From the NCBI RefSeq assembly GCF_018736105.1, contig NZ_CP076135.1, forward strand, positions 496,001 through 560,000: a DNA stretch of 64,000 nt. Direction: 5' to 3'. The number at the start of each line of letters is the position of its first letter. Positions within the stretch are counted from its first letter, which is position 1. Below, piece after piece: positions 21,284 to 39,190 of the stretch. The notes under the pieces were generated by a model. The model saw only the letters and a list, made by a program, of their open reading frames with translations, searched no databases and was not told the origin of the DNA. The DNA is from Bradyrhizobium sediminis (GTDB lineage Bacteria > Pseudomonadota > Alphaproteobacteria > Rhizobiales > Xanthobacteraceae). Position numbers and translations under genes: made by a program.

Positions 21284-21353
21284 TCACGACTGCTGGCCGA
21301 GCCGGGCAGTCCTTCTCGAACTGATAAGGCTTCTAACAAAAGCTTACGAGTAA
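21284..21353. repeat. module-boundary repeat, family 1, copy 1
   Basis: The core 21320-21351 is ACTGATAAG-N14-CTTACGAGT, a 13-6-13 architecture with imperfect inverted arms. The preceding 36 bp are related to copies 3 and 4: in one frame the copies read WPxxxxVxxLIR at the same spacing. It lies 55 bp before the end of the CHAT gene, at the left edge of the island. Confidence 0.6.
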
Positions 21354-21407
21354 ATGTAACGGGGTTCGTTTCTCTAAAATGGCTCATCGAAGTGATGGAG
21401 ACAGCTA

Positions 21408-24400
21408 TTATTGTCGCGTTGAAAGGGCCGGCCTGCCGCCGAGACTGCCATAGATAACCGGCTTGCCCCGGTCGAACACAAGTCCCTGGGCAAAGGCACT
21501 CAGACCGAAGGCGGAATTGTAGGAAGGTACGGCCCCACCGTTCAGTTCGATCTTGAAGATTGAAAACTCGAGAAGCTCGTCGCCGCTATCGCCCCATCGC
21601 TTCGAGCCCGTCTCTGCTGTTGTGGCGCCGAGGCGCCGCACGCCAATCGGACGCTGCCGCTTCACGGCGAAATATGTCTCGCCCTGCTCACTCGCTACAG
21701 ACTGGACGTTAGACGGAAACGGATCATCATCCTTCCACAGCGCCGATGATGTAAATTGCCGGCCCACCTGGAGGAGAAGTCCCTTGCCGCCAGCCTCGCA
21801 GGCTCCGCGCGTCTGGCCGCCGATCTTGAGCTGACTGTCGCCGCCATCGACACCAAAAGCCTGAAAGTCGGGGATTGTAAGGGTCTTCTTGATTTCGAAA
21901 GTTGAGCTGTCCAACAGATAGAGTACCGTTTGGCGCGGCCCGTCGCAGAGGGTCGGCAGACCGAAGAGAGCTTCGTTTGCACCAAAATTGCCAAATTGCC
22001 GCAAGTTGACGACGAGCACGGGATCGGGACCGAGCTTTGAGAGCAACGTCGATCGGCCCACGATAAACGCGGACTTTCCGACCTTGATCTCTTTGCGCGC
22101 GATCTCATGACCATCCACGTCGAACCGGGTCAGATATGCCACGCGTTCGTCGGTTTGCTGCGAATAAATCGAGCCTGACAACATGACGATGTCATTGCCA
22201 ATCTTTACCGCACCCGCTGGCGAGTTGTCCTCGAGATCCGGCCAAGCCCTTTCCCAGACCTTGGAGCCATCCGGCGCGAGCCGCCGGACAACCGGGTAGG
22301 GGTGGGGTGACGTCTTGTAACCAAGCGCATATATCTGCGATTGATCGATGAAGAGAGGGCCGGCGGCAATGTCGTGAGACGCGGCCGGAAAGCCGGCGCC
22401 ATCGTGCCCCGCATCCCTGATGATGCTGGCCATCGAGCTTCCGTCCCAACCGCCCATCGCCGATAGTATCAGGCGGCCCGCGAGAGGTTTGGCATCGAAG
22501 AGTTCTCCGACCTCGTCGTTGCCAAAGGGTGCATAATCAAACGTAGCGTTCGTTGAATTCACGCCATCGTCGGGCAAGCTAGCTCCATAGCCAAAGACAA
22601 TGAAAGGCGCCCAGAAGCGCGGATGGTGATGAGCCCTGTCGGCTCGGGCGAGATAGCGTTCAACACCTCCCGCCAGAGCCGCCGAGGCGCTCTTGTGGTG
22701 CTGTTCGTTCCAGGTTGTGAAAAATGCCAGCATCAGATCATGTGCGGCGTTGGTTTCCACGGTCCAAAGCGATGCTAGCAAGGTCGGCGATCCGGAAACC
22801 GAGAAGGCGGCCGCAAGATCGGTGATGCCGATATTTGCGGCCGATGTATCCATCCGCGCCGTATTGCAGGCCGAAAGAACGACAAGGCGCGCATCAAGCG
22901 GAAGCCGGGTGATCTCCGGCGCCGTCAGCAATCCATCGTCGAAACTGTCGGACAAGTCCTTGGGCGTGAGAACCAGCGACGCCTCGTTCAAGCCGGGTAT
23001 GTCGTTGCGCAGCAGCCCGTGGGTTGCGAAATGGATGATGTCGTACTTGCCGAGATCCTTGGTGCGGAAGTTCTCCTCAGACGCATCTGTACCCAGCAGT
23101 ACATCGCCTTTTGCGGCATGCATAAGTTGCCCGACGTTGGTGATTTCGTCCGCCGTCTCCGGCAGCGATCCCAGTTCGCTCAAGGCGCCGCGCAGGGAGG
23201 CGTCGGTATTGCCACTGCGCGTCAGACTGGCCTGTTGAGTGACCATGGAAAGGGAGGGATTGCCGATGCCGAGATAAGGCAGCGGCGCGTGCTGGTGCGA
23301 GATCGACGTGCGCGTGCCAAGAAAATGACGTGCCGAGATCGAACTCGCGAGCCTGTATGTCTTGCCAAGCCAGCGGGCCGCGAGCAGATCGTATCCGTCG
23401 CCCCGCCGGGGCGGCGCTTCTTCGAGCAGGGCCGAGAGCGGAATGCCCGACAGTTCCTCAGGTGGCGCTGCATTGACCAGCGAGCCAGGCTGCGCGCAGG
23501 ATTCGAGACCTTTGAAGAGAAGATCCCTGAGGCGAACAGCCGATTGGACCGGATACTGGCTATCAAGCGTCTCATCAGCCGCACGCTCCTGCGTCAGCGC
23601 CAATCGCACCAGCTTGGCGTCAAGGATCGCCACTTGCGGTTCGACATCGGACACTGAAAACAGCGTTGTCGTCCTCGAGATGCAAAGACGACCCATACCC
23701 TTGAGCGTGGGAAAGAAAGTGAGAAAGACCTCGTTGGGTTCGAGCACCGTTTGAATTTGTGCAGCCATCGGATACCCGATCGCCTTGGCGTAATCCGCAT
23801 CTTTCGTGAGTGCGTCTTCCAGCCGAACAATGGTCTCGGTAAGGCCTGCGTAAGTCGTAATGAGATATCCAGCTTCCTTCTTGCTGCCAGCCATGAGGTT
23901 CTTGATCTGATCAAGCTCCCACTGCCGCTTTTGTTGCTGCAAGATATAATAGGAGCGTACGGTGTCGCGCGCGCGTTCGGTCTTTTGGGCGCCGATCAGG
24001 ACCGCAAAATCGCTGGTCTGATGCCGAAGCGTACGGGAAAGCATTTCGCTGCCCCTAAGCGCCAGGTCGGCGGCATCAGGCGGCGGGAAGTCCACAAGGG
24101 ACGTCAGAGCCGTCTGAATAACAAGGGCGTCGATCAAGGTCGGCAGCTGAAACCCTTCAAAGCGGCGCGTCAGAAATCCTTCAAAGACCTCAATCCGCTC
24201 CCGCGCCGCCGTTTGAATCAATGCAGCGGCTTCCGCTCGTGAAGTTGGAAGAGCTATCAATCCGAGTGCGAAATGACGGTAAGATTCAATATTCTCGGCG
24301 ACGTATCCCGATAGCTGCCAGGCGGCAGGGATCGCCGCGAAGTGCAACTTCCAGGGCGCCATGCGCGATGGATCTTTGGAACTCGAAATGAGTAACTCAG

Positions 24401-25436
24401 AGAGTCCAAAGTAAAACTCTTGCAGCGTCTCGAAATGATCACGTGCGATAATTGCGTCGCGCTGCGCTTGCAAGGGATGACGCGCATGGAGGGCAGCAGC
24501 TTCATCAGTGGCACCTTCGAAGAGAAGCGAGAGCGATGCAAGGCTATTGCTTGTCGAGGTCCGGTAGAGCTTTATGCCTTCATTTATGTCCAGACGATCG
24601 TTGAGCCGGATCGCCTCCTCGAGAAATCCGGCGACCTGCCTGGACCGGGTTGTCATCGCGACCAGCTGAGTCATGATGTGTACGTAACCCGCAAACACCG
24701 GACCTTCGTGATTGAGATTGGCTGACATGTAGGGATCGATCAGGCGTGCGAGCGCTTGGGCGCTAACAATGTCCTGTTGTGAAATCAGCGACTCCAGAAA
24801 TTCGGCTAGCGCCTTGCAGATGCTGTATTTGTCCTTGGGGTCGATGAGTAAGAGACCCATGATCGCAGTGGAGTAGGCTTTCTCAGCCAACTGATGTTCG
24901 TTCAAGAGCAGGAAGTGGTTCACGGCCGTAAGATTGGCCATCACCGCCGGATACGGAGACGCCGCGGGATTGAATGGTACTTTGTTGTTCGGAAAGAGGC
25001 TCTTGCGAGATTGCGGATCGTTGTTTCCGAAGAACTGCGCGCGAAGCAGGTAGGCATAGAGTTCCGGGAAGAGCGGTTTGAGCTTCTCGTCCGTTTTGAC
25101 GATCTCATAGGCCGCAACCTCGGATTCGATCGCGCACTCGACTTCGAAGGCCGTCGAACATATCTCGGTCAGGTCGCGCAGCAGAAGCGCTTTGGCATTC
25201 TGATCGGCCGTCTCCTTGACAAGCCCGGCGATCTCGCGCCCGGCTTCGCGGACCTGGCCGCGATGAAATTTCTGGTACGCAGCCTGTTTTCGGCTTTCCA
25301 AATCCGGCGCGGGCTGTGAAAATGCACGTGAAACGAGAATGAGCTGCAGGGTTGAGCAAAGCAGCATCGCTGTCAGCACAGACAAGAGGGACGGGGGGCC
25401 CGATCGTATGAAACGCGCCGTCTTGTCTGCCTTCAT
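21408..25436 (-). CDS. exported CHAT-domain (caspase-like) protein with TPR region and C-terminal extension
   Basis: About 1342 residues. A charged N-terminus and hydrophobic stretch ending SRAFSQ look like a signal peptide, so the protein is probably periplasmic. Residues about 60-550 are helical with TPR-like character. The CHAT protease domain (about 560-935) has the catalytic His in IIHFATHGLLR (about His806) and Cys in VVLSACNTAR (about Cys857). The last 400 residues are beta-rich, with recurring YLTRFDVDGHEI-like strands that suggest a propeller. I start at ATG 25436; the coding start then overlaps the divergent protease gene by 29 bp. ATG 25367 is an alternative that avoids the overlap but weakens the signal peptide. 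CHAT proteases act in bacterial defence and cell death. Confidence 0.85.
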   Translation of the reverse strand: MKADKTARFIRSGPPSLLSVLTAMLLCSTLQLILVSRAFSQPAPDLESRKQAAYQKFHRGQVREAGREIAGLVKETADQNAKALLLRDLTEICSTAFEVECAIESEVAAYEIVKTDEKLKPLFPELYAYLLRAQFFGNNDPQSRKSLFPNNKVPFNPAASPYPAVMANLTAVNHFLLLNEHQLAEKAYSTAIMGLLLIDPKDKYSICKALAEFLESLISQQDIVSAQALARLIDPYMSANLNHEGPVFAGYVHIMTQLVAMTTRSRQVAGFLEEAIRLNDRLDINEGIKLYRTSTSNSLASLSLLFEGATDEAAALHARHPLQAQRDAIIARDHFETLQEFYFGLSELLISSSKDPSRMAPWKLHFAAIPAAWQLSGYVAENIESYRHFALGLIALPTSRAEAAALIQTAARERIEVFEGFLTRRFEGFQLPTLIDALVIQTALTSLVDFPPPDAADLALRGSEMLSRTLRHQTSDFAVLIGAQKTERARDTVRSYYILQQQKRQWELDQIKNLMAGSKKEAGYLITTYAGLTETIVRLEDALTKDADYAKAIGYPMAAQIQTVLEPNEVFLTFFPTLKGMGRLCISRTTTLFSVSDVEPQVAILDAKLVRLALTQERAADETLDSQYPVQSAVRLRDLLFKGLESCAQPGSLVNAAPPEELSGIPLSALLEEAPPRRGDGYDLLAARWLGKTYRLASSISARHFLGTRTSISHQHAPLPYLGIGNPSLSMVTQQASLTRSGNTDASLRGALSELGSLPETADEITNVGQLMHAAKGDVLLGTDASEENFRTKDLGKYDIIHFATHGLLRNDIPGLNEASLVLTPKDLSDSFDDGLLTAPEITRLPLDARLVVLSACNTARMDTSAANIGITDLAAAFSVSGSPTLLASLWTVETNAAHDLMLAFFTTWNEQHHKSASAALAGGVERYLARADRAHHHPRFWAPFIVFGYGASLPDDGVNSTNATFDYAPFGNDEVGELFDAKPLAGRLILSAMGGWDGSSMASIIRDAGHDGAGFPAASHDIAAGPLFIDQSQIYALGYKTSPHPYPVVRRLAPDGSKVWERAWPDLEDNSPAGAVKIGNDIVMLSGSIYSQQTDERVAYLTRFDVDGHEIARKEIKVGKSAFIVGRSTLLSKLGPDPVLVVNLRQFGNFGANEALFGLPTLCDGPRQTVLYLLDSSTFEIKKTLTIPDFQAFGVDGGDSQLKIGGQTRGACEAGGKGLLLQVGRQFTSSALWKDDDPFPSNVQSVASEQGETYFAVKRQRPIGVRRLGATTAETGSKRWGDSGDELLEFSIFKIELNGGAVPSYNSAFGLSAFAQGLVFDRGKPVIYGSLGGRPALSTRQ

Positions 25437-26583
25437 TGCCGTCGCCCTCATGGATACAGCCTTGGCCCAGGCAGACCTGGTCGGCAAGGCCCTCCCGGCC
25501 TCGCCTGAGAACGCTAACATACTCTCCCTCGAGAGCACCCCCGAACTTTATGACATGGGCGGCCTCGGCAACGCGCTCGTCACTAAATACGCGGGCGTCA
25601 AGCTCGCCGATGCGCCTTACGTCAGCCGCGGCCGGCACGATTCCGAGATCTACCGGCTGCTTTCGCCCTCGGTCGTCATCGTGGTTACCGACACCAGCAT
25701 CGGTTCAGGCTCCTATATCGGGCTCGGCGACGCGGTCCTGACCAACTGGCACGTCGTGAAGGGCTTTCAGAAGGTCGGCCTCCTGTTCAAGCCGCCAACC
25801 GAGGGAAGTAAACCGTCCGAAGCTGACTTTGAGATCGCGCAAGTCGTGAAAATCGATCCGGGCCACGACCTGGCCCTCCTTCGCGTTGCTTCCGCGCCGC
25901 GCGATACAAAGCCCATCGTCCTTGGCTCCGAAGCCGACATTCAGGTCGGTGCCGACGTGCACGCTATCGGGCATCCGACCGGGGAGGCCTGGACCTACAC
26001 CAAGGGGTTCATCAGCCAATACCGTAAAGATTACGAATGGCGCGACGAAGAAGGCTCGCACAAAGCAAGCGTCATCCAGACCCAGACACCCATCAATCCC
26101 GGCAATTCCGGCGGTCCGCTGCTCTCGGATGATGGCAAGCTCATCGGCGTGAACGCCTTCAAGGCCAAAGGCGAGGCGCTCAACTTCGCGATCTCCATCG
26201 CCGATGTCCAGGCCTTCCTTGCCAAGGCCGGCCAGCCAATCCCCGCGAAGGCACCGGCGACCTGCAAGTCGGTAAAACTGTATGAGGGAAGGGACCGGCA
26301 GAATACAGCTGTACTCGTGCAGTTCGATACGAACTGCGATGGCAAAGCAGACTATTCCTTTGTCACGCCGGACGACCTCACCAAGCCTATTTCTACGCAT
26401 CTCGACATCAATTTCGACGGTAAAACGGATATCTCTGTCGAGGATCGCAATCGCGACCAGAAGTGGGACATCTCCTTTCACGACGTTGATTTTGACCGAA
26501 AGATTGATCTCGTTGGCTATCATCCTGATGGCAAGCTGACGCCTTCGCGCCTGGATAAGTATATCCCCGGTACCCGTTACTGA
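25408..26583 (+). CDS. exported trypsin-like (HtrA-type) serine protease with EF-hand-like repeats
   Basis: 391 residues. A signal peptide (MKRAVLSAFIAVALMDTALAQA) leads into a trypsin-like domain with the triad His115 (LTNWHVVKG), Asp154 (GHDLALLRV) and Ser234 (NPGNSGGPL). No PDZ domain follows. Instead the last 90 residues hold four acidic loops, DTNCDGKADY, DINFDGKTDI, DRNRDQKWDI and DVDFDRKIDL, spaced like calcium-binding EF-hand/dockerin loops. It diverges from the CHAT gene, and both products appear exported, so protease and caspase-like partner probably work together in the periplasm. That partnership is inferred from position. Confidence 0.88.
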   Translation: MKRAVLSAFIAVALMDTALAQADLVGKALPASPENANILSLESTPELYDMGGLGNALVTKYAGVKLADAPYVSRGRHDSEIYRLLSPSVVIVVTDTSIGSGSYIGLGDAVLTNWHVVKGFQKVGLLFKPPTEGSKPSEADFEIAQVVKIDPGHDLALLRVASAPRDTKPIVLGSEADIQVGADVHAIGHPTGEAWTYTKGFISQYRKDYEWRDEEGSHKASVIQTQTPINPGNSGGPLLSDDGKLIGVNAFKAKGEALNFAISIADVQAFLAKAGQPIPAKAPATCKSVKLYEGRDRQNTAVLVQFDTNCDGKADYSFVTPDDLTKPISTHLDINFDGKTDISVEDRNRDQKWDISFHDVDFDRKIDLVGYHPDGKLTPSRLDKYIPGTRY

Positions 26584-26811
26584 CGGCTTCTATCTATGGA
26601 TGCGATAGATGGACCGTTGCGCCTATTCCCACAACGACCTAATGCATGACAAGCTCGTCGTCACTGCTTCGCCGCACTGTGCATAAACGTCTGTGCCACA
26701 ACTAAAGAGAGTTCGGCGCCCGCGCTCACGGGTAAAGTCTCCAACAAGAGCTACGAGTGGATAATCGTATAGCCTCTATACAGCTTCAGTTTTTGCGTTG
26801 GTCTGTTCGAA
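26584..26811. other. gap between protease and ImmA genes with degenerate boundary repeat (copy 2)
   Basis: 228 bp at the converging ends of two modules. At 26728-26758 the run aligns with copy 1 at 24 of 31 positions with one 1-bp gap, including AACAAGAGC-TACGAGT against AACAAAAGCTTACGAGT. The left arm is more decayed (ACGGGTAAA). I see no gene here. Confidence 0.5.
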
Positions 26812-27738
26812 TTAGCTTTCGCCGGGAAGGACCACCATTGTTGTCTTCGGACGCTCGTCTAGGATGAGAACAAGAATTTGGTGGCGGGTCTTAAATGCTT
26901 CGCCGGTGCAGATCCGGGTGTCGCCGTTGCGATCGACCAGACTGAAGTCGCGCTTTGCCACCATCCGCTGTTTCGCGCCGCGCGGTACCAGCGATGCCAG
27001 CGCATGGCCCGATATGATGGCGGTGCCAAAACCGGCAGCGTCGTACATGCGGTGAAAGGTTCTTGAGACGATGACCCGCCGGATATAGGCCCGAAAGCCG
27101 GCATGATCGTAGGTGAGCTCCGGTTCGAGCACCACGAGGCAGCAGGCGCTTGGGTTACTGGTGACGTAGCGGCGGAACGTTGCGTAGTTAGAGCCGCCGA
27201 ACTGCTTGGCAAGGGCCATGCCGGCCTTGATGCCAAACGCGTGGTCATTCGCGTGTTGTGCGAACAACTCGCCCTGAAACAGGGCTTCCGACGCAAACAC
27301 GTTGGCCTCGCGCTCGAAGAGATCGGTGATCTCGGGATCGAGCGTTTTCTCACAATCGTGGATGAGGGAATACACTTTGCTTTGATGGGGCATCGTTCCA
27401 TGCCCAGCCTCGTGCAGCTTAACGAACGGGATACGCGGGGTAGGGGTGTCCTTGTCGATGATCACCAGCCGATCGTTGGCTTCGAACAAGCCGAGCACCT
27501 TACTCAACGCCGATTTGATCGTGGCGACGCTCGCCTTGGCTGATTTTATGAAGCGCTCGAGAAAAGTAGCATTCAGGATTTCATCATCGACGACCGTAAG
27601 CTTGGCCGCTTCCATGATGGTCTTAACCGGCGTCGGAAATACGCCATGAGCTGCAGCGTCGCGCAGCAGGCGGTCGGCATGACGCTGCACATTGAGCAGC
27701 TGTTCCGGCGTTAAGAATGCATCATCAGGTCGGGTCAC
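26812..27738 (-). CDS. ImmA/IrrE-family metallopeptidase
   Basis: 308 residues. The zinc-protease motif is HEAGH (FVKLHEAGHGTMPH), with the third ligand in FEREANVFASE. ImmA-type proteins cut or antagonise Xre repressors. The GTG start (27738) overlaps the TGA of the upstream Xre gene by four bases, so the two are translationally coupled, the usual repressor/anti-repressor arrangement. Downstream residues 190-308 show no motif I can name. The pair diverges from the ubiquitin-like operon and probably controls it. Confidence 0.9.
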   Translation of the reverse strand: MTRPDDAFLTPEQLLNVQRHADRLLRDAAAHGVFPTPVKTIMEAAKLTVVDDEILNATFLERFIKSAKASVATIKSALSKVLGLFEANDRLVIIDKDTPTPRIPFVKLHEAGHGTMPHQSKVYSLIHDCEKTLDPEITDLFEREANVFASEALFQGELFAQHANDHAFGIKAGMALAKQFGGSNYATFRRYVTSNPSACCLVVLEPELTYDHAGFRAYIRRVIVSRTFHRMYDAAGFGTAIISGHALASLVPRGAKQRMVAKRDFSLVDRNGDTRICTGEAFKTRHQILVLILDERPKTTMVVLPGES

Positions 27739-28106
27739 GTGCGGTGTTGTTTCCTTATGAACGCCAGGTATTCGATCAATGCTTTTTCTTCGTCCGGCGT
27801 CAGATTCTCCACCGCGAAGGTCGCAACGCGTGCTTGCCGCGATCCGGTTGATGCCGCGGGAAAGTAACCGGCTCGCTCCATGAGGTCTTCGTAAGACGTA
27901 CTGTAAATGCGCGCCAAAACGTGAAGCACGTTCGGCGAGGGTTTGGTGATCTTATCATTCTCAAGTTGACTTAAATAGGCATTTGAAACCTCCTTGCCAG
28001 ACGCTTCCTCGACTTGACGCAGGGTGAGGTGCGCGGCATCCCGCAGGCGAGCGAGATGTTTGCCAAAGGTCAGTTTCGCCGCGGGCGGCTCTTTGGCTTC
28101 CGGCAT
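27735..28106 (-). CDS. Xre-family transcriptional regulator
   Basis: 123 residues with a canonical helix-turn-helix (HLTLRQVEEASGKEVSNAYLSQLENDKI) at about residues 20-60 and a C-terminal part ending EEKALIEYLAFIRKQ. ATG 28106 is preceded by AGGAGGAAAG. It is the first gene of the Xre-ImmA unit. Its promoter overlaps the palindrome CTTGATACGTCAAG in the divergent region, which suggests autoregulation and repression of the ubiquitin-like operon until ImmA relieves it. Confidence 0.92.
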   Translation of the reverse strand: MPEAKEPPAAKLTFGKHLARLRDAAHLTLRQVEEASGKEVSNAYLSQLENDKITKPSPNVLHVLARIYSTSYEDLMERAGYFPAASTGSRQARVATFAVENLTPDEEKALIEYLAFIRKQHRT

Positions 28107-28139
28107 GGCTTTCCTCCTATGTGATTGATTCTGAATGAG

Positions 28140-28214
28140 AATATACCCGATTAGCTTGATACGTCAAGCGCCGCGTGGCAGGTGCTTGACGAATTTAGCA
28201 AAGCCGCATATATA
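28140..28214. promoter_or_regulatory. back-to-back promoters and palindrome controlling Xre-ImmA and the ubiquitin-like operon
   Basis: Rightward: TTGACG (28186-28191), 17 bp, TATATA (28209-28214), then 52 bp to the multiubiquitin ATG. Leftward: TTGACG (complement of 28162-28167), 16 bp, TATATT (complement of 28140-28145), then the Xre start. The palindrome CTTGA-TACG-TCAAG (28155-28168) covers the leftward -35, and the half-site GCTTGACG recurs on the rightward -35, so one Xre protein could block both. Confidence 0.6.
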
Positions 28215-28266
28215 AAGCGGATCGGCTCGCGGGCCCTTAATCTCTTCGAATAGAAGGCTAAACCGA

Positions 28267-28716
28267 ATGTCTGAAGACCACCACGACCACGAAGTTCGCA
28301 TCCACATCGATCGCGAGCCCTACAAATCGCCCAATCCCACCACCGGCGAGGCGCTCTATAAGCTGGCCGAGATGGGTCCGCATAAGGAGCTGTTCCGCGA
28401 AGCCGAAGGCGACCACGAAGACCAGTTGATTCCCCGCGATGGCACCGAGGTGCACCTTCACAAGGACGAGCACTTCTACTCCCAGAAAACGGTGACGATC
28501 TTCGTCAACGGCACGCAGGATGCATGGCCGCATCGCAAGATTTCTTACGATCAGGTGGTGAAGCTGGCGTTCCCGCATGGACCGTTCGGCGGCGACATCC
28601 GCTACAGCGTGTCGTGGACCAAGCCCGACGGGCAAGAGGGGTCGCTGCGGCCCGGCCACAAGGTGGTTGTTGTTGAGGAGATGATCTTCGATGTCCGTAA
28701 CACCGATAAATCTTAA
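28267..28716 (+). CDS. multiubiquitin-like protein (two beta-grasp domains)
   Basis: 149 residues. Two ubiquitin-like repeats can be seen: about 8-72 (EVRIHIDREPYKSPNPTTG, ending VHLHKDEHFYS) and about 75-142 (KTVTIFVNGTQDAWPHRKIS, ending VVVVEEMIFDV). Tandem repeats of this type define the prokaryotic multiubiquitin family found with E1/E2 genes. The C-terminus is DVRNTDKS, not a free di-glycine, so processing or a different linkage chemistry is needed. The downstream E2-E1 gene overlaps its end by 26 bp, indicating coupling. Confidence 0.85.
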   Translation: MSEDHHDHEVRIHIDREPYKSPNPTTGEALYKLAEMGPHKELFREAEGDHEDQLIPRDGTEVHLHKDEHFYSQKTVTIFVNGTQDAWPHRKISYDQVVKLAFPHGPFGGDIRYSVSWTKPDGQEGSLRPGHKVVVVEEMIFDVRNTDKS

Positions 28717-30719: not shown

Positions 30720-30794
30720 GGATTGGGATTGGAATAGGACCACGCTAATGTCTCTCTCGGGGTTGATAACCTGGTGGGCGAATCGGGGCGGGGC

Positions 30795-31274: not shown

Positions 31275-31291
31275 CCGCGCGCCGAAACGTG

Positions 31292-31618
31292 TCAGCCGGA
31301 CGGTTGCTCATACCGTTTGACCCACGCTTGGTGATTTTGTTCAGCGAGGGCTTTGACCGAGTCAGCTTCTTCTTGCGACTTAAAACACCGCTGGTCGTTG
31401 ATCTGAACGCTTTCGATGTTCAGGGCTTTGGCGGCCTCCGCGACGATTGACGGCCACGCGCCGTCCCAATACTGTCCGATCTTGAGCCGGTTTTTCCGGC
31501 GTGTCGGAATCTTGAACGTGAACGGCGCGAGGTAGTTTGCGGTCGATTGAGCTATGCGCTGCCGCGCTTCGTCATCGGCGGGATCGTCACCAAATAAGAC
31601 ACGCTTGGAATAGCCCAT
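31292..31618 (-). CDS. hypothetical protein, last gene of the TIR operon
   Basis: 108 residues starting at ATG 31618, 47 bp after the CAP12-like gene on the same strand. It is soluble, mixed alpha/beta by eye, with a basic middle (FKIPTRRKNRLKIGQYWDG) and a helical end (SQEEADSVKALAEQNHQAW). I cannot place it in a family. Position makes it a possible fourth member of the TIR operon, for example an immunity or accessory subunit, but that is only inference. Confidence 0.6.
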   Translation of the reverse strand: MGYSKRVLFGDDPADDEARQRIAQSTANYLAPFTFKIPTRRKNRLKIGQYWDGAWPSIVAEAAKALNIESVQINDQRCFKSQEEADSVKALAEQNHQAWVKRYEQPSG

Positions 31619-31665
31619 AGTGCTGTCGCCTGTTTGATGATTCCGGCAGCAGCCGGCCAAACGCT

Positions 31666-32613
31666 TCAACCGCGCATAACCTTGTTCCAGTCAATCTCGT
31701 AGCCGGCTGCCTCCAGCTCCCTCGACAACGTCTGCCGCCAGCCACCGCCCCTGTCGAAAGACTCGTCGATGACGCCACGCCAGTCAGAAGGAATTTCGGG
31801 GTCGCCGACCTTCAACGTGCAAACGCGCGGGCGTCCCAGCTTGCCTATGAAGTAACCCAGCTCCAGGAGCACGTTTTGCCTCACGCGCGGTGCCGGCGTT
31901 CCGCCCTTCACGCAGCCTTCGTCATCGGGGGTCAGCAGGATGACCGCGAAGCCTACATCACTGTGGGCTTCCACCTTCTCGATGACGGTTCGGCCCTGGT
32001 TGGCCTTTTCATGCAGGATGACGGCCTCAAATCCGATCTTCTCCAAGAACCTCGCAACAGCTTCGCGCACGCCTTCGTCATGGCCATGGACAATGAACAC
32101 CTTGCGCGCAGCAGTCACCATGGATGGAGACGGTGCGCCCAGCCCTGAACCCTGGCTGTCATCGTCAAGGTCCCCCAGGTCGGTCTCCAGCGCCCTAATG
32201 GCTCCCTGCAATATCTTGATCGAACGCTGCTTGCCTTCGGCAAGGTACTGGCGGGCTTCGTGCGCGTCTCTCGCGTCATAATCGATCGGCCCACCACGGC
32301 CAAAAGCCGGCTCCATGCGCATCGTGACCGGACCATTGTCCAGGCTGGCCGCATCTTCAAAGTTCTTGTACCGCGGCGTGTTGTGGCCAAAGGCGACTGC
32401 CAGCGCGTCCCGTATGCCCGCTTCGATGGTCATCACCTCAGGGATGTTGAAGCGCTTCTGCACTTGCTCCGGCTTGAACGCTTCCACATCAGCGAGGCAT
32501 TGCTTCAGTCGCTCGATGCGGCGGCGGACCTGCGCCGCGTTCAGAACGGGAGCCTGGGGCGGCGGGGTGGTCGGCCGGCGAGGGGGCAAAGATGTGCTCC
32601 GCTTTGGTTGCAA
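31666..32613 (-). CDS. CAP12/Pycsar-type TIR-like nucleotide-binding protein
   Basis: About 315 residues. The first 30 are proline/arginine-rich. A helical region (about 35-150) precedes a TIR-like domain: RKVFIVHGHDEGVREAVARFL, VILHEKANQGRTVIEKVE, FAVILLTPDDEG and QNVLLELGYFIGKLGR, whose Glu matches the catalytic position of NAD-cleaving TIR domains of the CAP12/Pycsar family. No ATG is available near the N-terminus; TTG 32613 lies 4 bp after the stop of the upstream TIR gene and gives tight coupling, while TTG 32685 would overlap it. It probably hydrolyses NAD+ or makes a cyclic nucleotide signal. Confidence 0.8.
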   Translation of the reverse strand: MQPKRSTSLPPRRPTTPPPQAPVLNAAQVRRRIERLKQCLADVEAFKPEQVQKRFNIPEVMTIEAGIRDALAVAFGHNTPRYKNFEDAASLDNGPVTMRMEPAFGRGGPIDYDARDAHEARQYLAEGKQRSIKILQGAIRALETDLGDLDDDSQGSGLGAPSPSMVTAARKVFIVHGHDEGVREAVARFLEKIGFEAVILHEKANQGRTVIEKVEAHSDVGFAVILLTPDDEGCVKGGTPAPRVRQNVLLELGYFIGKLGRPRVCTLKVGDPEIPSDWRGVIDESFDRGGGWRQTLSRELEAAGYEIDWNKVMRG

Positions 32614-32617
32614 TTGC

Positions 32618-33661
32618 CTAGCGGCCTGCCCGCAACGCCGCGGTGTCAATCCACGCGCCGATGTTCTTGTGGCCTTCCTCGGCAACGTAGTCGTAAATGG
32701 CCGTGACGTCGGAAAGTGGCACGACGAAGCCCACCTTCGGCGGGTTCGCCTGCATGTGTTTCGGCAGTGGCACGGCGAAGGTGTACTTGCTGTACTTCTC
32801 CCAGCGCCATTGCCATGTCAGCTGGCCAGCCTCCACCACCTGTTGCAACACGCGCTCATAGAGGAAGTACACACCCGCCTGTTTCGGGCACCCCACAGCC
32901 ATGTAGTCGAGCGGATTATCTCCATGTTCATCCGGGGCTTGGCGCTGATGGTGCCGAAGGCTGTTGAGGTGGACCGCCAGCAGGCCCTTCTTGTCGATGA
33001 CGGAGCGGGCGATTTCGTACCTGACCCACGGCCGAGCCCAAGTCTCGGTGCCTACCAGCACGCAGACCACGGAGGCGTGGGCCATGCCGCCGCGAATCAG
33101 GTTCTTGAGGCCTTCCGGGTTCTTGCGCTGGACGGACTCCCACAGGCTGCGGTCGAAGAACTGGCGCTTGTCCTCGCGGCCGGGGCAATCGATCTTCCAA
33201 GATTGGCGCACGTTGTTGACGCGCATGATGTCGGCATAGTGGAAGGAGAAAAAGCCCTTCCGCTTGATGGTGGCCGGCGCGTACGTCGGCGCTGGCCTTG
33301 CAGGCGCCACAGGCGGCGCAACAAGGTCGGCGAGCCGAGGCAGGGGCCGACGAGGCGCTACTGGCGGGGCGACTAGGTCAGGGTTGAGAAAGGGCGCGAA
33401 CGGGTTCTGCGCGGTCGAAGGCGTCGGCAGCCCAAAGGCGCCGAGCAGACTTGATCCCGCGTCGATGGAAGGCGCCGAGGGCGCGAGGGCGCTTAGCAGG
33501 CCAGCCACGCCATTGGACGGTGGCGGCGTTGGCGCAAAGAACGGGGAGGAGAGGCCAGAACCGAATGGTGAGGCGAGACCAGAACCGAACGTCGGGCTTG
33601 TTGGCTGGGCGACGCGCTGCAGCAGCCTGATCAGCGCATCCTTGTCATATGAGCTTGTCAT
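32618..33661 (-). CDS. Thoeris-like TIR (MTH538-type) protein with disordered N-terminus
   Basis: 347 residues. Residues 1-130 are low-complexity Pro/Ala/Gly/Ser, with a repeated LVAPPVAPxRP unit. The TIR domain follows: KGFFSFHYADIMRVNNVRQSWK, DRSLWESVQRKN, GMAHASVVCVLVGTETWARPWVRYEIARSVIDKKGLLAVHL, the pattern of ThsB/MTH538 TIR proteins that make cyclic ADP-ribose-type signals. ATG 33661 overlaps the end of the membrane-protein gene by 17 bp. It would be the signalling or sensor component; a conventional ThsA effector with SIR2 or SLOG is not present. Confidence 0.85.
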   Translation of the reverse strand: MTSSYDKDALIRLLQRVAQPTSPTFGSGLASPFGSGLSSPFFAPTPPPSNGVAGLLSALAPSAPSIDAGSSLLGAFGLPTPSTAQNPFAPFLNPDLVAPPVAPRRPLPRLADLVAPPVAPARPAPTYAPATIKRKGFFSFHYADIMRVNNVRQSWKIDCPGREDKRQFFDRSLWESVQRKNPEGLKNLIRGGMAHASVVCVLVGTETWARPWVRYEIARSVIDKKGLLAVHLNSLRHHQRQAPDEHGDNPLDYMAVGCPKQAGVYFLYERVLQQVVEAGQLTWQWRWEKYSKYTFAVPLPKHMQANPPKVGFVVPLSDVTAIYDYVAEEGHKNIGAWIDTAALRAGR

Positions 33662-34085
33662 AGACCTGCCTTGCAATGGCTACCGCCAAGACCGTCACAA
33701 CGGCCAGCGGCAGATAGAATCCCGCCACCGACCAGCTGAAGAAGGCAGGCCAATATGGCGAAACCGGGTTGTCCTTGTTGCCCATGTTGAAGGTGGGCGA
33801 CGTGTCCCAGCCTTCTGCGGCGACCGCGTCGAATCGCTTCCGGAATCGGCGCTCGACTTGAAGATAGCGCGCATCCAAGAAGGCAAAGGACAGGATCGGC
33901 ACCAGCGTCAGCAAGGCGACGATGGGGCGCTGCAAGGTGATGGCGAAGCCGGCGATCGCGACCGAAATGGTAACGCAGTAGTTCTTCAAGGTCGCGCACT
34001 GCGCCGCCATGCGCGTCACCACCCCCTGAAGCATCTCCAGCTGCTTCAACCTCAGATCAGCGATTTTTTCCGGCGACAACGGCAT
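33645..34085 (-). CDS. small membrane protein leading the TIR operon
   Basis: 146 residues with about four membrane helices in two pairs (KNYCVTISVAIAGFAITL, IVALLTLVPILSFAFLDARYL, AFFSWSVAGFYL, PLAVVTVLAVAIARQ). The motif FLDARYLQVERRFRKRFDAV resembles a family of TIR-partner membrane proteins whose usual form is LDAYxLRxERxFRxLYxxV. It is the first gene and overlaps the TIR gene. A pore or membrane-disrupting effector, or an anchor for the TIR protein, is likely from position. Confidence 0.75.
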   Translation of the reverse strand: MPLSPEKIADLRLKQLEMLQGVVTRMAAQCATLKNYCVTISVAIAGFAITLQRPIVALLTLVPILSFAFLDARYLQVERRFRKRFDAVAAEGWDTSPTFNMGNKDNPVSPYWPAFFSWSVAGFYLPLAVVTVLAVAIARQVYDKLI

Positions 34086-34271
34086 AGGGGCAGGTTAGAA
34101 CGGATAAGGAACATCGACAAGGCGATTCCCCGAGCTATCCATCGGATTCTCAATGGGCCGGGAGCTATTGCTCGACCGGGCCCTTAAAAAGCTTGCCCGG
34201 AAGGTATGCAAGCGCAGGGACCAAACGGGGCGTACCTGTATATCAGCGATTCCCGGGGCGGAGAGGTGCCA

Positions 34272-35474
34272 ATGATTAGATTTTCAATGGGTGGCAAGAA
34301 CCTTGATCCCCGCAATCTCAAGGATGCTGTCATGGCGTCAGTGCTGGAGGGCGTTCGCAATCAAATCCGCGAAAAGGTCGGCAACATTCGCGATCCAGAC
34401 ACGGGCGAATTCCCAACCATCGTCATTCGCGGCAACAGCCTCGACGATCTAAAGATTCAGGTCGAGGGCTCGCCAGCCCTTGTTGCTTTGGTCAACGAAC
34501 GGCTGGGCCTCGAGGCAGCGGGTGAACCCAGCGCAGCGCCAGAAAGCCAGCCGCACGTCTTTATCAGTTATACATCCGAAGACATCGACATCGCGCGGCG
34601 GGTCGCCGAGGCGCTTCGGGGCGCCGGCATCGAGGTGTGGTGGGACAAGTGGTGCATCTCGTCCGGCGATAGCCTACGGCAAAAGATCGACGAGGGAATT
34701 GGCGGCTGCACGCACTTTCTTGTCTTGCTCACGCCGCGCTCTATCAACAAGCCTTGGGTCAACCAGGAAATGGACGCGGGTCTCATCCGCAAACTGAACG
34801 ACCAGTGCCGCTTTCTTCCGGTTCGTCACGAACTGCCGGCGTCCGAATTGCCGCCGTTGCTTTCGGGCATTGCGTCAGCGTCGATTGTGACCGATGCCGA
34901 TGTTGCTCAGTTGATCCATGATATCTACGCGCTGACGCGCAAACCGCCGCGAGGGCCTGCACCCGCGGCCGTGCAAAACAGCCGGGCATCGCAGACCGGT
35001 TATTCCGCCGCGGCCAACGCCATCGCGCGCTACTTCGTGGAAAAATCGGAGGACGGCTTATTCGGCGACCCGATTTGCGAGGTCGATGAGCTGGCCAAGG
35101 AAGTCGGCCTCAGCGTCGAAGACACCGAAGATGCCATCCAGGAGCTTTCTGGTTTTCTCCGGCTGTCGACCGGCCACGTTTTGGTGGAAGGGACGCTGTT
35201 TGCCGAGTTCGATCGCTACTGGAAACCGTGGAGTACGGCCGATGATGCACTTCGGTTGGCGGCCGACATCATGAGCGACCCTAAGTTTCCCGATCCCTGC
35301 GAAGAAATCGCAAAGCTGTATCAATGGGAGCCTCGACGTCTGAACTCGACCGCTTATTATTTGCTGGAGAGGTCTCTCATCGTGGACTATCAGGGCATCG
35401 GTACCGCGCCGTGGGCCGTTTTTAGAATTGTCGGCAACCAGAATATGCGTCGATTTGTGAAGAGCCGCTCGTAG
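34272..35474 (+). CDS. TIR-domain protein with N-terminal and winged-helix C-terminal parts
   Basis: 400 residues. The N-terminal 85 residues are of unknown fold. The TIR domain (about 92-215) begins PHVFISYTSEDIDIARRVAEALRGAGIEVWWDKWCISSGDSLRQKIDEGI, with the conserved WWDKW and the Glu before GI characteristic of NAD-cleaving TIRs. The C-terminal 150 residues look like tandem winged helices (LAKEVGLSVEDTEDAIQELSG and so on). ATG 34272 has GCGGAGAGG (34258-34266); ATG 34206 is a weaker alternative. It diverges from the TIR operon and seems a stand-alone defence gene. Confidence 0.82.
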   Translation: MIRFSMGGKNLDPRNLKDAVMASVLEGVRNQIREKVGNIRDPDTGEFPTIVIRGNSLDDLKIQVEGSPALVALVNERLGLEAAGEPSAAPESQPHVFISYTSEDIDIARRVAEALRGAGIEVWWDKWCISSGDSLRQKIDEGIGGCTHFLVLLTPRSINKPWVNQEMDAGLIRKLNDQCRFLPVRHELPASELPPLLSGIASASIVTDADVAQLIHDIYALTRKPPRGPAPAAVQNSRASQTGYSAAANAIARYFVEKSEDGLFGDPICEVDELAKEVGLSVEDTEDAIQELSGFLRLSTGHVLVEGTLFAEFDRYWKPWSTADDALRLAADIMSDPKFPDPCEEIAKLYQWEPRRLNSTAYYLLERSLIVDYQGIGTAPWAVFRIVGNQNMRRFVKSRS

Positions 35475-35895
35475 CTTGCTCACTTAAACTCTGCGTCGCG
35501 GTACCGGCGTCACAGGATCCCATCCTCACACGAGCGGAGGCGCGGTTAGTGATCGGACTCCAAATGACTGATGACGGCACGCCTCAACGTCCTCCGTTCC
35601 GATCTCCGCTGGATTCAGGTTACAAAATTGATGCCGCAGCGGATAGCGTAGAGTTTGTGAAGCGGACCTTCAGCTATTGACCGACCCTGAAACGATCCAA
35701 GGCCGTGGCCGAGCCGTCCTACAGCTTCGACCCAAGCTCACCCTTTTAGTTCGCGCCGAGTTTCTGCAACCAGCGACTTCGGCCTATGTTGCATTCGACG
35801 GGGCGAACCATACTGAGTTCCAATTTGGTGATGGCTTTCAAAGCACCGAGGCAATTGCCGCTTCTCTACACAAACTGCGCAGCTAATACGTTGGT
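35475..35895. other. intergenic region with one doubtful small frame
   Basis: 421 bp between converging genes. A 69-codon frame (35677-35886, TTG start) has no signature and no good ribosome site; it could be a decayed gene end. No hairpin or RNA was recognised. Confidence 0.4.
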
Positions 35896-36909
35896 TTAGT
35901 TCTGGCAGGCGCGACGAATCTCGCTTCCTACACGCTGCTGCAAATCATCGGGATATTGGCCCGCTTTCTCAAAGGCGATCATGTCGGCGCGGGTGAGCTT
36001 GGCCGCAAAATTCGTCGCAAGGCACTCGCATTGACTTGCCGCGCGCGCGGGCAATTTTCCGTCGAAGCCGGCGGTCTTGAGGGCCTCCGCTTTGCAGGCC
36101 TTTTCGAAGCCGGGGCGGACCACTTCGGTTTTGAAACGCTCCAGTTCGGCCTCTGAAAGCGTCGAGATGTCAAACGTCTTCGTCAGGGAATACGCCGCTT
36201 TCTGCCAGTCAAAATTGGCGTCCCACACATAATATGCCCCCATCACCGCGAGGATGAGAAAGCCAAGCTGGCCAACGAAGGGGACGCAGGAAAACAAGAT
36301 CACGCCGACGAGAGCCCCAAACCAGGACCATCCGAAAATATGCATCACCGCGATGACGTTTAGCGGCAGCGACAAGAGCGCGAAGGCGCTGATCGTTAGG
36401 CCGAATGTTGAGCTGAGCAGGCCGGTGATCACACCGAGAAACGTCTCGACAATACCTCGCCTTTTCCTCGGCGCAGGCTGCGGCGCCATTGGCCGTGAGC
36501 CAGTTTGCGCCGGCGAGCCTGCGTTGCGCGGCGGCGCGGGCTCGGGTGATGGCGTGGGTTGCGGCGTGACACGGATCGGCGTCGGCGTGCCAGCGCGGGG
36601 CGGCTGCGGTGCCGGCGCAGGACGCGGAGCTGGCGCAGGCGCGTCCGGTGAAACAGTGCGCGGTGGTGCTGGCTTTGGGCTGGGGGGCGGGCCCTCCGGG
36701 ACCTCAGGATAGAGAGGCTTGAAAGGGGCCGCGGGAGGTTCTGCGGGCGTCGGCGTGCGGGGCTTTACAGCAGGCGCAGCCTTTTTCGGGGGCGGCTCGT
36801 CGCAAACATGCTGTTGGTCCCCTTCGAAAGGTACCCATTGGCCGTGCGGCATCTGCCGCAGGTTAATCCTGCGCCCGCAATACTTGCATGCTTTGTTGTA
36901 GCTGGACAT
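35896..36909 (-). CDS. zinc-ribbon, proline-rich membrane protein
   Basis: 337 residues. An N-terminal CKYCGRRINLRQMPHGQWVPFEGDQQHVC zinc-ribbon-like segment (first 37 residues) is followed by 110 residues rich in Pro, Ala and Arg, then three hydrophobic helices (about 165-235). The last 90 residues form a helical cytoplasmic or periplasmic tail with CECLATNFAAKLTRADM. AGGGGGGC precedes ATG 36909. It diverges from the helicase gene. I do not recognise the family; the layout zinc ribbon-linker-membrane suggests a sensor or anchor. Confidence 0.65.
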   Translation of the reverse strand: MSSYNKACKYCGRRINLRQMPHGQWVPFEGDQQHVCDEPPPKKAAPAVKPRTPTPAEPPAAPFKPLYPEVPEGPPPSPKPAPPRTVSPDAPAPAPRPAPAPQPPRAGTPTPIRVTPQPTPSPEPAPPRNAGSPAQTGSRPMAPQPAPRKRRGIVETFLGVITGLLSSTFGLTISAFALLSLPLNVIAVMHIFGWSWFGALVGVILFSCVPFVGQLGFLILAVMGAYYVWDANFDWQKAAYSLTKTFDISTLSEAELERFKTEVVRPGFEKACKAEALKTAGFDGKLPARAASQCECLATNFAAKLTRADMIAFEKAGQYPDDLQQRVGSEIRRACQN

Positions 36910-37003
36910 CGCCCCCCTGCTCAGTCGGGAGTACCACCGATGGTAGCGACGCTTCAAGCAGTTGTGATAGTATGTGGGACCGGCCTGCAGGGGGAGTTTT
37001 TCG

Positions 37004-38701
37004 GTGTCGCGCCAATATTTGAGTTGGTCGATTGCGCAACTTGAAGAGGAGTTTGAACGCGCCCAGGACAGCGGCGACAGAGCAGCAGTTGAAAAAGTCG
37101 TCAGCGAACTCGGCTTCCGCACCACTCCGAAGGCCCGATCGCTTCTTCAGGCAGCAGAGAGATTTCTAGGCACTGCGGAGCGGCCGCGCAGTGAGCAACG
37201 GGGCGCGGCAAAACCGCCGCCTACCGCAAAGACGGGGCCGACGCAAAAGCCGCCACCCAACGCGAAGGGTAAGCCGTCGCGAAAGCCGACAGCAGAGCAG
37301 CAGCAAGCCATCGATCAGTTTCAGCGCGGCGGCTCCGTGAAGATCAACGCCTATGCCGGCACCGGCAAGACCTCAACGCTCGAATTCCTGGCGCAGAGCA
37401 CATCCAGGCGCGGTCAATACATCGCGTTTAACCGCGACATTGTCCGCGATGCCAAAGAGAAATTTCCCAATACGGTGAACTGTTCGACCAGCCACGGACT
37501 CGCTTTCAAGGCGACGCCGTGGGCCTATCGAAACAACTCCGATAAGATGACCAAGAGGATAAACGCAAATCAGCTTGCCGAGATGCTGAACTTGAGGCGG
37601 TGGGACATCGATAGGCGGCACGTACTGCAACCACGGTCGCAGGGATATCTTATCCTCGATACCCTGCGCCGCTATATGCAGAGCGCCGACGCCGAACTGG
37701 CGGCGCATCACGTTCCCCGTCATGGATCGCTGCTTGCCGCTCCCGACGCCACTATGCGGGCTGTGACAGAGTTCGCCCTGCACGGTGCTAAGCACGTCTG
37801 GGGTCGTATGAGGAGCGAGGCCGACACCATGCCGCTCGGTCACGATGGCTACCTGAAACTATGGGCTCTCACCAATCCCGCGATTGCCGCCGACTTCATT
37901 CTCCTTGACGAGGCGCAGGATACAAATCCGGTTGTGCTCGATGTTCTGCGGAAGCAGCCAGCCCAAATGATCTATGTGGGGGACAAGTACCAGCAAATCT
38001 ATGAGTGGCGCGGCGCGGTAAATGCGATGGAAAAAATCGAGACCCAGGGCGAGACCTACCTCACCACCTCGTTTCGCTTTGGTCCTGCCATAGCGGAATG
38101 GGCCTCGAAGCTCTTGGTCTTTCTCGGCGAAAAGCGTCCGCTCAGGGGAAATGTAGCGGTCAAGAGCCGGGTTGGAAGCGTTGAGCCGCGAACCATACTG
38201 GCGCGCACCAACGCCTCCACCATTGCCGCAATCATCGAATGCCTGGATGAAGGCAAGAAGCCTCATCTTGTCGGCGGTACCGATGAGTTGATGGAAATGC
38301 TGCGCGGCGTGCAGGACCTGAAGGAGGGCAAACAGAGCACGGTCCCGGACTTCTTCGGCTTCGACAAGTGGGAGCAAGTCGTCGAATTTGCCAAAAGCGG
38401 TGAGGGGGATCACCTGCTGTCATTTGTGAACCTGGTCGAGGGTCGTGGAGAGCGTCAATTGATATGGGCTCTCAATCGCACCGTCGACGAAGAGCGAAGT
38501 GACCTGACTATTTCGACCGCTCACAAAGCAAAGGGTCGCGAATGGAGCACGGTCCGGCTTACGGATGATTTTCTGCGCAGCCAACCGGGAAAGCCAACCA
38601 GTGGCCCCGATCCGGCCGAGGTGCGACTTTTCTACGTCGCCCTGACTCGCGCAAAGGAAGCCGTCGAGGTTCCGCAGAACGTTCTGTCGCTGATCCGATG
38701 A
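37004..38701 (+). CDS. UvrD/PcrA-like superfamily 1 helicase
   Basis: 565 residues, shorter than UvrD. Walker A is INAYAGTGKTSTLEF, Walker B is FILLDEAQDTNPV, and later motifs appear as QIYEWRGAVNAM, TSFRFGPAIAEW and FYVALTRAKEAVEV. The first 95 residues are a helical then Pro/Lys-rich extension. GTG 37004 follows GCAGGGGGAG. An ATGA overlap couples it to the ParB-like gene. Helicases of this compact form accompany nucleases in antiphage systems, but none is adjacent here. Confidence 0.85.
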   Translation: MSRQYLSWSIAQLEEEFERAQDSGDRAAVEKVVSELGFRTTPKARSLLQAAERFLGTAERPRSEQRGAAKPPPTAKTGPTQKPPPNAKGKPSRKPTAEQQQAIDQFQRGGSVKINAYAGTGKTSTLEFLAQSTSRRGQYIAFNRDIVRDAKEKFPNTVNCSTSHGLAFKATPWAYRNNSDKMTKRINANQLAEMLNLRRWDIDRRHVLQPRSQGYLILDTLRRYMQSADAELAAHHVPRHGSLLAAPDATMRAVTEFALHGAKHVWGRMRSEADTMPLGHDGYLKLWALTNPAIAADFILLDEAQDTNPVVLDVLRKQPAQMIYVGDKYQQIYEWRGAVNAMEKIETQGETYLTTSFRFGPAIAEWASKLLVFLGEKRPLRGNVAVKSRVGSVEPRTILARTNASTIAAIIECLDEGKKPHLVGGTDELMEMLRGVQDLKEGKQSTVPDFFGFDKWEQVVEFAKSGEGDHLLSFVNLVEGRGERQLIWALNRTVDEERSDLTISTAHKAKGREWSTVRLTDDFLRSQPGKPTSGPDPAEVRLFYVALTRAKEAVEVPQNVLSLIR

Positions 38702-39150
38702 TTGCGCCCTCGCTTCAGCCGCGCATTGGCCCCAAAGAAGATGAAGAATTACAAAGGCAGATTGTCGATAACAAGGGAATTTTTGAACCGCTGCTTGTTG
38801 AGCCTCTTTCCGATCAAGATGGATGCTTTCGCATTATCGACGGTGAGCACCGATGGGCCAATTACAAGGTACTTGTAGAAGGCAAAAGTGAATTCCGTCA
38901 AATACCCATCGAAGTAACGGATCGATTGCTTGGCGACGAAGATCGTTTGCGTGTCTGGATTTATATTCGCCGTCAGCGCAAGGAATGGGATGCGCAAGAA
39001 AAGGAAATGGTTGCATATCGACTGATAGAGCTTGTCGGCCGAGCGAGCGCTGCAAACATGCTTGGCATTTCATTTCGTAAGTTAGATATCCGCCTTGATT
39101 GCAGACGAAGTCAGTCAAGCCTTGAAAAGCTTTGGCCGCAAATGGATTAA
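38698..39150 (+). CDS. ParB/Srx-like domain protein, possibly truncated
   Basis: 150 residues. The N-terminal part has the ParB-like pattern LQPRIGPKEDEELQRQI, PLLVEPLSDQDGCFRIIDGEHRWANYKVL, with the GEHRW box. A central helix region (WDAQEKEMVAYRLIELVGRASAANMLGISFRKLDI) resembles the helix-turn-helix that follows in ParB. It overlaps the helicase stop by four bases. The final codons (SLEKLWPQMD) fall in the leader of boundary repeat 4 and match the truncated frame at boundary 3, so its true C-terminus may be missing. Confidence 0.75.
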   Translation: MIAPSLQPRIGPKEDEELQRQIVDNKGIFEPLLVEPLSDQDGCFRIIDGEHRWANYKVLVEGKSEFRQIPIEVTDRLLGDEDRLRVWIYIRRQRKEWDAQEKEMVAYRLIELVGRASAANMLGISFRKLDIRLDCRRSQSSLEKLWPQMD

Positions 39151-39190
39151 GTTGTTCAACTGATAAGGAAATTACACGAAGCTTATCAGT
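39124..39190. repeat. module-boundary repeat, family 1, copy 4 (best conserved)
   Basis: The core 39159-39190 has perfect 9-bp arms ACTGATAAG and CTTATCAGT separated by 14 bp (GAAATTACACGAAG). The leader GAAAAGCTTTGGCCGCAAATGGA matches copy 3. Family-2 motif A follows 11 bp later, so two recombination-like sites lie side by side. Confidence 0.75.

Follow-up and report, generated by a model that had tools for sequence, protein, structure and literature searches.

A probable integron-like platform for gene modules in Bradyrhizobium: 13-6-13 palindromic sites and a short tyrosine recombinase

Several described systems collect genes between short recombination sites. In integrons, according to the sections of PMC9668308 (PubMed Central, PMC) that define them, a tyrosine recombinase gene stands beside a primary site, the cargo lies between sites, and some arrays have no integrase at all (‘CALINs’). 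The dif modules of Acinetobacter (‘pdif’ sites, served by XerC and XerD) are flanked by two-armed sites whose 6-bp spacer varies; identical spacers are favoured, with some tolerance, in the account excerpted from PMC13141974. Simple tyrosine recombinases (Xer, RitA–C, TnpA and the integron-like enzymes) combine a core-binding domain with a catalytic domain, as classified in part of PMC8138268. And genomic islands of Bradyrhizobium, such as the photosynthesis cluster, carry a transfer RNA (tRNA) gene and a partial copy of it at the edge, as related in passages of PMC7656271. Here we describe a set of short repeats in a stretch of 64,000 nucleotides from Bradyrhizobium sediminis (assembly GCF_018736105.1, contig NZ_CP076135.1, positions 496,001 to 560,000), called ‘the window’ below and numbered from its first letter, together with the enzyme that accompanies such repeats in related genomes. 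Comparison of sequences makes it probable, in our judgment, that the repeats are the attachment sites of an integron-like platform for gene modules, with a dedicated short tyrosine recombinase.

Four copies of one sequence (sites 1, 2, 3B and 4B in Table 1, here copies 1 to 4) lie exactly where a first-pass annotation of the window had placed them. Copy 4 has perfect 9-bp arms around 14 bp, and copies 1 and 3 keep this spacing, with imperfect right arms in both. Copy 2 is rightly positioned and weak by sequence; the site pattern, at up to three mismatches, misses it. The leader that copies 3 and 4 were said to share is itself a second, half-changed site, situated 38 bp before each copy. At up to three mismatches the pattern occurs at three places in the whole 5.45-Mb genome (copies 1, 3 and 4), all within one 18-kb stretch, and the reversed pattern, used as a control, occurs nowhere in the genome. 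One 9-base arm by itself gives 8 matches in the window when one mismatch is allowed, not significantly more than the 5.06 expected. The 79 bp that span the site pair 3A/3B are 91% identical in genome G091.

The consensus is a palindrome of 32 bp, ACTGATAAGSWWW-N6-WWWSCTTATCAGT, in which two inverted arms of 13 bp enclose a variable core of 6 bp. It is present in 20 of 36 genomes of the genus; 24 genomes taken from the order's other families all lack it. The wider search of related genomes that the first-pass annotation had proposed found it, at up to one mismatch, in 81 of 265 genus genomes, with no match for the reversed pattern; the genome-wide counts for G287 are to be read as ‘at least’. 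The exact pattern occurs in 81 stretches of a named collection, of which 76 are, by title, Bradyrhizobium, Afipia, Xanthobacteraceae, or metagenome-assembled genomes (MAGs) under the names Hyphomicrobiales or Alphaproteobacteria; the other five are titled Falsochrobactrum, Clostridia, Ruminococcaceae, Acidobacteriaceae and Isobaculum. One Acidobacteriaceae MAG contig (L108, 5.6 kb), possibly mis-binned, carries a site together with a relative of a serine recombinase of the window. Viral contigs gave no match to the pattern. After de-duplication by flank, the sites comprise 144 with two full arms (‘type B’), 54 with a full left arm and the right arm AAAYGGAGTCAGT (‘type A’), five of a C-type and one of a P-type. 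Site-bearing genomes carry 1 to 7 B sites each at up to one mismatch. The next site in the same direction follows an A site at 38 bp in 40 of 54 cases and at 36–47 bp in seven; the remaining seven have none. The C-type was considered as the far end of each element and rejected, there being only five such sites to 54 of type A, and several of the five being A-like on the other strand. Neighbouring sites lie 1.6 to 50 kb apart.

The cores recur. Six alleles, read on either strand (GGTCGC, CTAACA, TTACAC, CGAGCA, CTCTCA and CATACG), account for 56 of 125 strong sites. Sites that have the same core form 257 pairs; 1000 column shuffles gave 7.8 on average and never more than 19. Of the 247 pairs formed within these six commonest alleles, none has both 40-bp flanks more than 60% alike. 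Such recurrence fits a rule by which recombining sites would have to be identical in their overlap, and the cores may then define compatibility groups.

Homology between genomes tends to break at the sites. Once loci contained in others had been removed (164 reduced to 120) and alignment ends near contig ends excluded, 27 of 399 alignment ends among the 120 non-redundant contigs fell inside a site, at 15 distinct junctions. Sites hold 0.47% of random positions, and shifted sites gave a mean of 1.45 such ends, at most 6. Breaks inside the 32 bp, often at the core, are about 19 times commoner than at shifted positions. The junctions of the window itself can be followed in relatives of module 1, which occur in G214 (94% identity), G082 (78%), G017 (74%) and G266 (69%), with a partial relative in G154. 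In G214 the homology begins at window position 21319, one base before site 1, and what lies to the left is an A unit, not the tRNA-derived base; the switch falls exactly at copy 1. In G266 the module 1 relative adjoins a B site, which is 2 kb from a recombinase gene. At the other end, homology to module 1 stops at 26555 or at 26583. In G132, 52 bp separate the base (window 21071–21300) from module 2 (from 26809); a degraded site alone lies between them, and module 1 is absent. The right edge of module 1 must therefore lie between 26583 and 26809, and copy 2 is inside this interval. Elsewhere in the genus, two sites enclose one 12.1-kb module in each of three species, Bradyrhizobium sp. WSM3983, sp. 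132 and B. betae; in B. betae it is inverted. Bradyrhizobium sp. LTSP849 and B. rifense have left flanks that are 96.7% alike as far as the core, where the likeness stops. A single B site (core GGCCGC) stands there in B. rifense, and LTSP849 has an A site (GGTCCC), a new B site and a different right flank. This pair may represent the step by which a stack would grow.

The window encodes no tyrosine recombinase, as the first-pass annotation had said: the five Phage_integrase matches of the genome (E≤1e-6) are all outside it. In the arrays of other genomes, a short tyrosine recombinase occurs near the sites. It was detected with a profile of 20 tyrosine recombinases from five genomes, searched in further arrays; two of the five array matches to the profile (G015 and G292) proved to be pieces of other integrases and were discarded. 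Beside its site, G015 does retain a remnant of the short recombinase, 32 residues long. A Phage_integrase scan gave none in the arrays of G000, G009, G015 and G022 among the matches listed. The enzyme has about 194 residues and comprises a catalytic domain only: PF00589 is its sole Pfam match (residues 12–181 of 194), and no core-binding domain was found. The full-length matches of the close clade defined below have open frames of 193–290 residues. The catalytic R, K, HxxR, H and Y are conserved in 47 of 47 aligned relatives. It therefore resembles the simple tyrosine recombinases in having PF00589 with the full set of catalytic residues, and differs from those of PMC8138268, so far as they are described there, in having nothing else. 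It differs from IntI in the same lack of a core-binding domain and in scoring 12.3–17.9 bits (four recombinases) on TIGR02249, whose cut-off is 265, and from invertases of the FimB/FimE type, whose models give 16–20 bits against a cut-off of about 221. No NCBIfam cut-off was reached by the short recombinase.

Sites and enzyme tend to occur together. The recombinase is found (E≤1e-30) in 34 of 265 genus genomes, and sites are present in 23 of the 26 genomes that carry its close clade compared with 58 of the 239 genomes without it (odds ratio 24; p=1.4e-10 with no correction for kinship). Sites average 3.19 per genome with the close-clade recombinase and 0.46 without; of the eight genomes with a recombinase from outside the close clade, two have sites. 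The arrangement is also polar. Twenty close-clade genomes have listed sites on the contig of the gene and no more than 100 kb from it, and in all of them there are sites on the 5' side of the gene. The six close-clade genomes outside this count are G079, G235 and G285, with no match to the site pattern, G006 and G089, with none nearby, and G288, with no listed positions. The genome of the window has no match to the short recombinase at E≤1e-30, so the window is an orphan array, comparable to the attC clusters without integrase outlined in PMC9668308.

In 28 Bradyrhizobium loci (one genome represented twice, three matches partial) the recombinase gene is followed by a gene for a protein of about 345 residues of unknown family. 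On a Paracoccus plasmid this gene comes after one for DUF3768, downstream of the recombinase gene. In 21 of the 50 recombinase loci, all from more distant relatives, the short flank contains no such gene; nine of the 21 have DUF3768 instead. The partner matches no Pfam family. It is rich in invariant Cys and His (L166:4612-5649, relatives P0121–P0240). In the homologue searches about 8,000 candidates were scored for each protein: the partner has at least 4,361 relatives at E≤1e-10, and 7,989 of 7,998 scored proteins match the recombinase at E≤1e-20. Structure models of both were unusable (mean predicted local distance difference test score, pLDDT, 49.5 for the partner and 46.8 for the recombinase).

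Distant relatives of the recombinase have, in some cases, palindromes of their own. G209 has one with ACTGATGATAGAA arms 121 bp upstream of the gene, and G187 and G225 have weaker ACTGATGATAGAA copies 10 and 16 kb out on the 5' side, with none close by. In another family, AAACGTCAYAAA arms lie 118–149 bp upstream in G446, G487, G567 and G628, and G628 alone has a perfect copy 7.6 kb out. Shuffled-arm controls for these two averaged 0.00–0.30 per region; the AAACGTCAYAAA search also gave four weak matches (6–7 mismatches), two of which fall, against expectation, in G209. Other relatives (e.g. L277–L284) show no clear palindrome by eye or by script. The recombinase has a relative in 17 of 397 genomes of the order, an even draw from a larger group, as well as in 154 plasmid records (145 of them Piscirickettsia) and in 61 records of phages such as phiCbK. 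This occurrence in other families, plasmids and phages would suggest that the class of platform is widespread. The Piscirickettsia plasmid relative is about 52% identical to the recombinase, and many of the 145 records list several copies.

Genome comparison shows the geometry of the sites, the statistics of their cores, the switches at module boundaries, the linkage and polarity of the enzyme, and a partial co-variation of arms with recombinase lineage, and together these fit one model, in which a dedicated recombinase exchanges modules. In related genomes, the gene for the enzyme of about 194 residues stands near a 13-6-13 site and reads away from the array, and on its 5' side follow the modules, parted by copies of the site. 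Most likely the enzyme binds the two inverted arms of 13 bp and swaps strands over the core of 6 bp. Where two sites have matching cores, it would excise or insert the modules between them, presumably through circular intermediates. After insertion at a B site, a half-changed A site could remain, followed 38 bp later by a new B site, so that a stack could grow. The window would be one such stack of defence modules, beside the remnant of a tRNA-Gln gene, in a genome that no longer has the recombinase. The 13-6-13 tyrosine-recombinase sites that the first-pass annotation had proposed for the stacking of cargo are supported by the alignment ends, the switch at copy 1, the cores and the recombinase of relatives.

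The platform works like an integron: a recombinase gene lies next to a site with the array on its other side (5' in the 20 genomes above), cargo is arrayed between sites, and there are arrays that lack the recombinase. It fails the tests for an integron integrase and for the attC motif. That motif is GTTRRRY; here the sites are 13-6-13 palindromes, and GTTRRRY lies within 4 bp of only 3 of the 125 strong sites. Exchange maps to the site centre, moreover, and the cargo is multi-gene, unlike in integrons. With dif modules the platform shares modules set between two-arm sites with a variable 6-bp spacer, and it departs from them in arms, linked enzyme and module size: the arms are 13-6-13, the recombinase is dedicated and linked, and the modules are large and chromosomal, whereas the dif modules of PMC13141974, where described, have 11-6-11 sites and use the XerC/XerD of the host. 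Compared by eye with the pdif table of that paper, the arms are not of the XerC/XerD type. The islands of PMC7656271 are similar in the tRNA gene or partial copy at the edge, and the passages of that paper on this edge mention no repeated 13-6-13 site. We found no description of these sites or of the platform in the literature (open-licence PMC papers). With less assurance than for the reading of the repeats as attachment sites, we incline to the view that this is an undescribed capture platform outside integrons and dif modules, in which a recombinase without a core-binding domain, together with an operon partner of about 345 residues, would use lineage-specific 13-6-13 palindromes to stack multi-gene modules, some of them defence systems, with the 6-bp cores as compatibility groups.

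A number of observations weigh against a dedicated platform. The 26-genome close clade on which the uncorrected association rests was chosen after the hits had been seen; G079 and G235 have the gene and no site, and G285 has no site at the pattern threshold. Of the 24 close-clade loci that could be read, only 9 have a full site, by pattern, in the roughly 190 bp upstream, and in others the site seems decayed or reduced to one arm; among three whole distant-clade regions of Bradyrhizobium, only G209 has a site just upstream. In G141, G266 and G065 one site also lies downstream of the gene, at 5.4–6.5 kb. The cores at the two ends of the 12.1-kb module differ between its three species, and those of the LTSP849/B. 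rifense pair, the single clear case of its kind, differ at two of six bases. Relatives of the modules are also bounded otherwise in part, a finding that the first-pass annotation had named as adverse: parts of module 3 occur in G138 and G064, neither with a B site at the threshold used, and two of the four near-full-length relatives of the CHAT module (G082 and G017) have no recognisable site at that end. Such cargo as module 3 must, then, also move by other means. Lastly, 58 of the 81 site-bearing genomes, that of the window included, are without the close-clade recombinase (56 without any hit at E≤1e-30), so that many arrays would be orphans.

This last figure is also what favours a different enzyme. 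The repeats could be true recombination sites on which the XerC/XerD pair of the host, or an unlinked integrase, acts in trans, the short recombinase being a passenger. Proteins like XerC and XerD are indeed encoded in the compared genomes G000, G006 and G022, and host Xer enzymes are able to move modules, as the dif modules show in the portion of PMC13141974 concerned. The consistent 5' position of the sites, the arms that in some cases vary with recombinase lineage, and the dissimilarity of those arms to the 11-6-11 Xer arms of that paper lead us to regard this as unlikely. As a separate observation, the three downstream sites (G266:C1:3790015, G141:C2:1992898 and G065:C8:4567) share the core GACAAC or its complement, and are perhaps the fixed end of the platform.

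Palindromes between genes may also be terminators, or elements like the repetitive extragenic palindromes (REPs), and module edges would then coincide with them because breakpoints fall between genes. Of 148 site clusters, 50 lie between convergent, 54 between co-directional and 13 between divergent genes, so that convergent settings are commoner than among gaps without a site (p=8e-6); just 23 fall within a called gene, as this explanation would have it. Against it stand the breaks within 32 bp, the recurring cores, the polarity and linkage to an enzyme, and the small number of B sites per genome, unlike REP families, and we think it very improbable. Sites of serine recombinases share a central dinucleotide, and the six common cores do not, so ownership of the sites by large serine recombinases, such as that at 42240–43649, is the least credible explanation, even though L051, L062 and L149 have a related serine recombinase with the D1 motif and 141-aa gene of Table 1 adjoining a B site, since only one Resolvase-domain gene was found in the examined arrays of nine genomes.

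Table 1. Sites, modules and neighbouring features of the window (positions in the window; A and B, site types)
Feature	Position	Strand	Description	Basis
Base	21040..21319	+	Degenerate partial tRNA-Gln(TTG) copy, 3' half, with downstream flank; joined to site 1	
Site 1	21320..21351	+	Type B, core CTAACA, right arm degraded	
Module 1	21352..26727		CHAT-domain gene 21408-25538 (-); trypsin-like gene 25339-26583 (+)	Pfam
Site 2	26728..26758	+	Degenerate; within the interval where module 1 has to end	
Module 2	26812..30321		M78 peptidase (capP-like) and helix-turn-helix (HTH) genes (-); Multi_ubiq, DUF6791-ThiF and DUF6527 genes (+)	Pfam, PADLOC
Site 3A	30351..30382	+	Type A, core GGTCAC, right arm AAATGGAGTCAGT	
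Site 3B	30389..30420	+	Type B, core CGAGCA	
Module 3	30421..39120		TIR genes 31666-32685 (-), 32618-33676 (-) and 34206-35474 (+)	Pfam, PADLOC
Module 3, continued			UvrD-like helicase 36974-38701 (+); start of ParB_N gene 38698-39150 (+), overlapping site 4A at its end	Pfam, PADLOC
Site 4A	39121..39152	+	Type A, core GGCCGC	
Site 4B	39159..39190	+	Type B, core TTACAC, perfect 9-bp arms	
D1 motif	39202..39226	+	TTCCATAAC...GCGAATG; directly after site 4B, as after some B sites elsewhere	
DUF4062 gene and HNH/DUF4365 gene	39273..41646	-		Pfam
D1 motif, 141-aa gene, large serine recombinase	41777..43649	-		Pfam, tblastn

The cargo of the window is of the defence type, as had been claimed. PADLOC identifies the M78 gene as capP and matches models of TIR effectors; the helicase is weakly GajB-like and the ThiF gene weakly E1-E2, and the CHAT gene has no PADLOC match. 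The called frames of the CHAT and trypsin-like genes overlap, which makes one start uncertain, and several frames of module 3 overlap as well. Elsewhere the claim does not carry over: gene families that recur beside sites are for the most part metabolic, concerned with transport, or unknown. When a single gene family near all sites was looked for, mostly cargo came up. The base is matched in 50 of 265 genus genomes, its own included; an intact tRNA-Gln is kept there in 10 of 30 loci scanned, and a B site (core CTCTCA) comes shortly after the base in G070 and G162.

To the right of site 4B lie features of another kind. Two large serine recombinases (42240–43649 and 60925–62559), neither of them in the list of the first-pass annotation, are encoded here; the second, near the right end of the window, has a relative in the array of G291. 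The set at 41818–43649, found also in L051, L062 and L149, looks like a type of element that uses, or is bounded by, B sites. Copies of D1 lie in the window at 39202, 41777, 50758, 52266 and 58308, all on the + strand and four of the five without a clear B site. Elsewhere D1 often comes directly after a B site (21 of 225 loci overall have it), and it is perhaps the inner end of a class of modules. A strict D1 pattern gave two chance-like matches in the genome and missed the window's own copies. A further motif, GGCGCAAAGCGGAC, occurs at 52300–52313 and 58288–58301 and is related to a hairpin that follows several B sites elsewhere.

If the platform described here is real, the question of how defence systems cluster in islands and travel together would gain a concrete mechanism for one bacterial group, comprising an enzyme, a site and module edges that can be measured. 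Most integron cassettes hold a single gene; the units set between the present sites are whole operons. DNA engineers, too, would take an interest in an enzyme of fewer than 200 residues that works at short, symmetric sites whose cores can be exchanged. And the site pattern would tell us which unknown genes share a mobile unit with a known defence gene.

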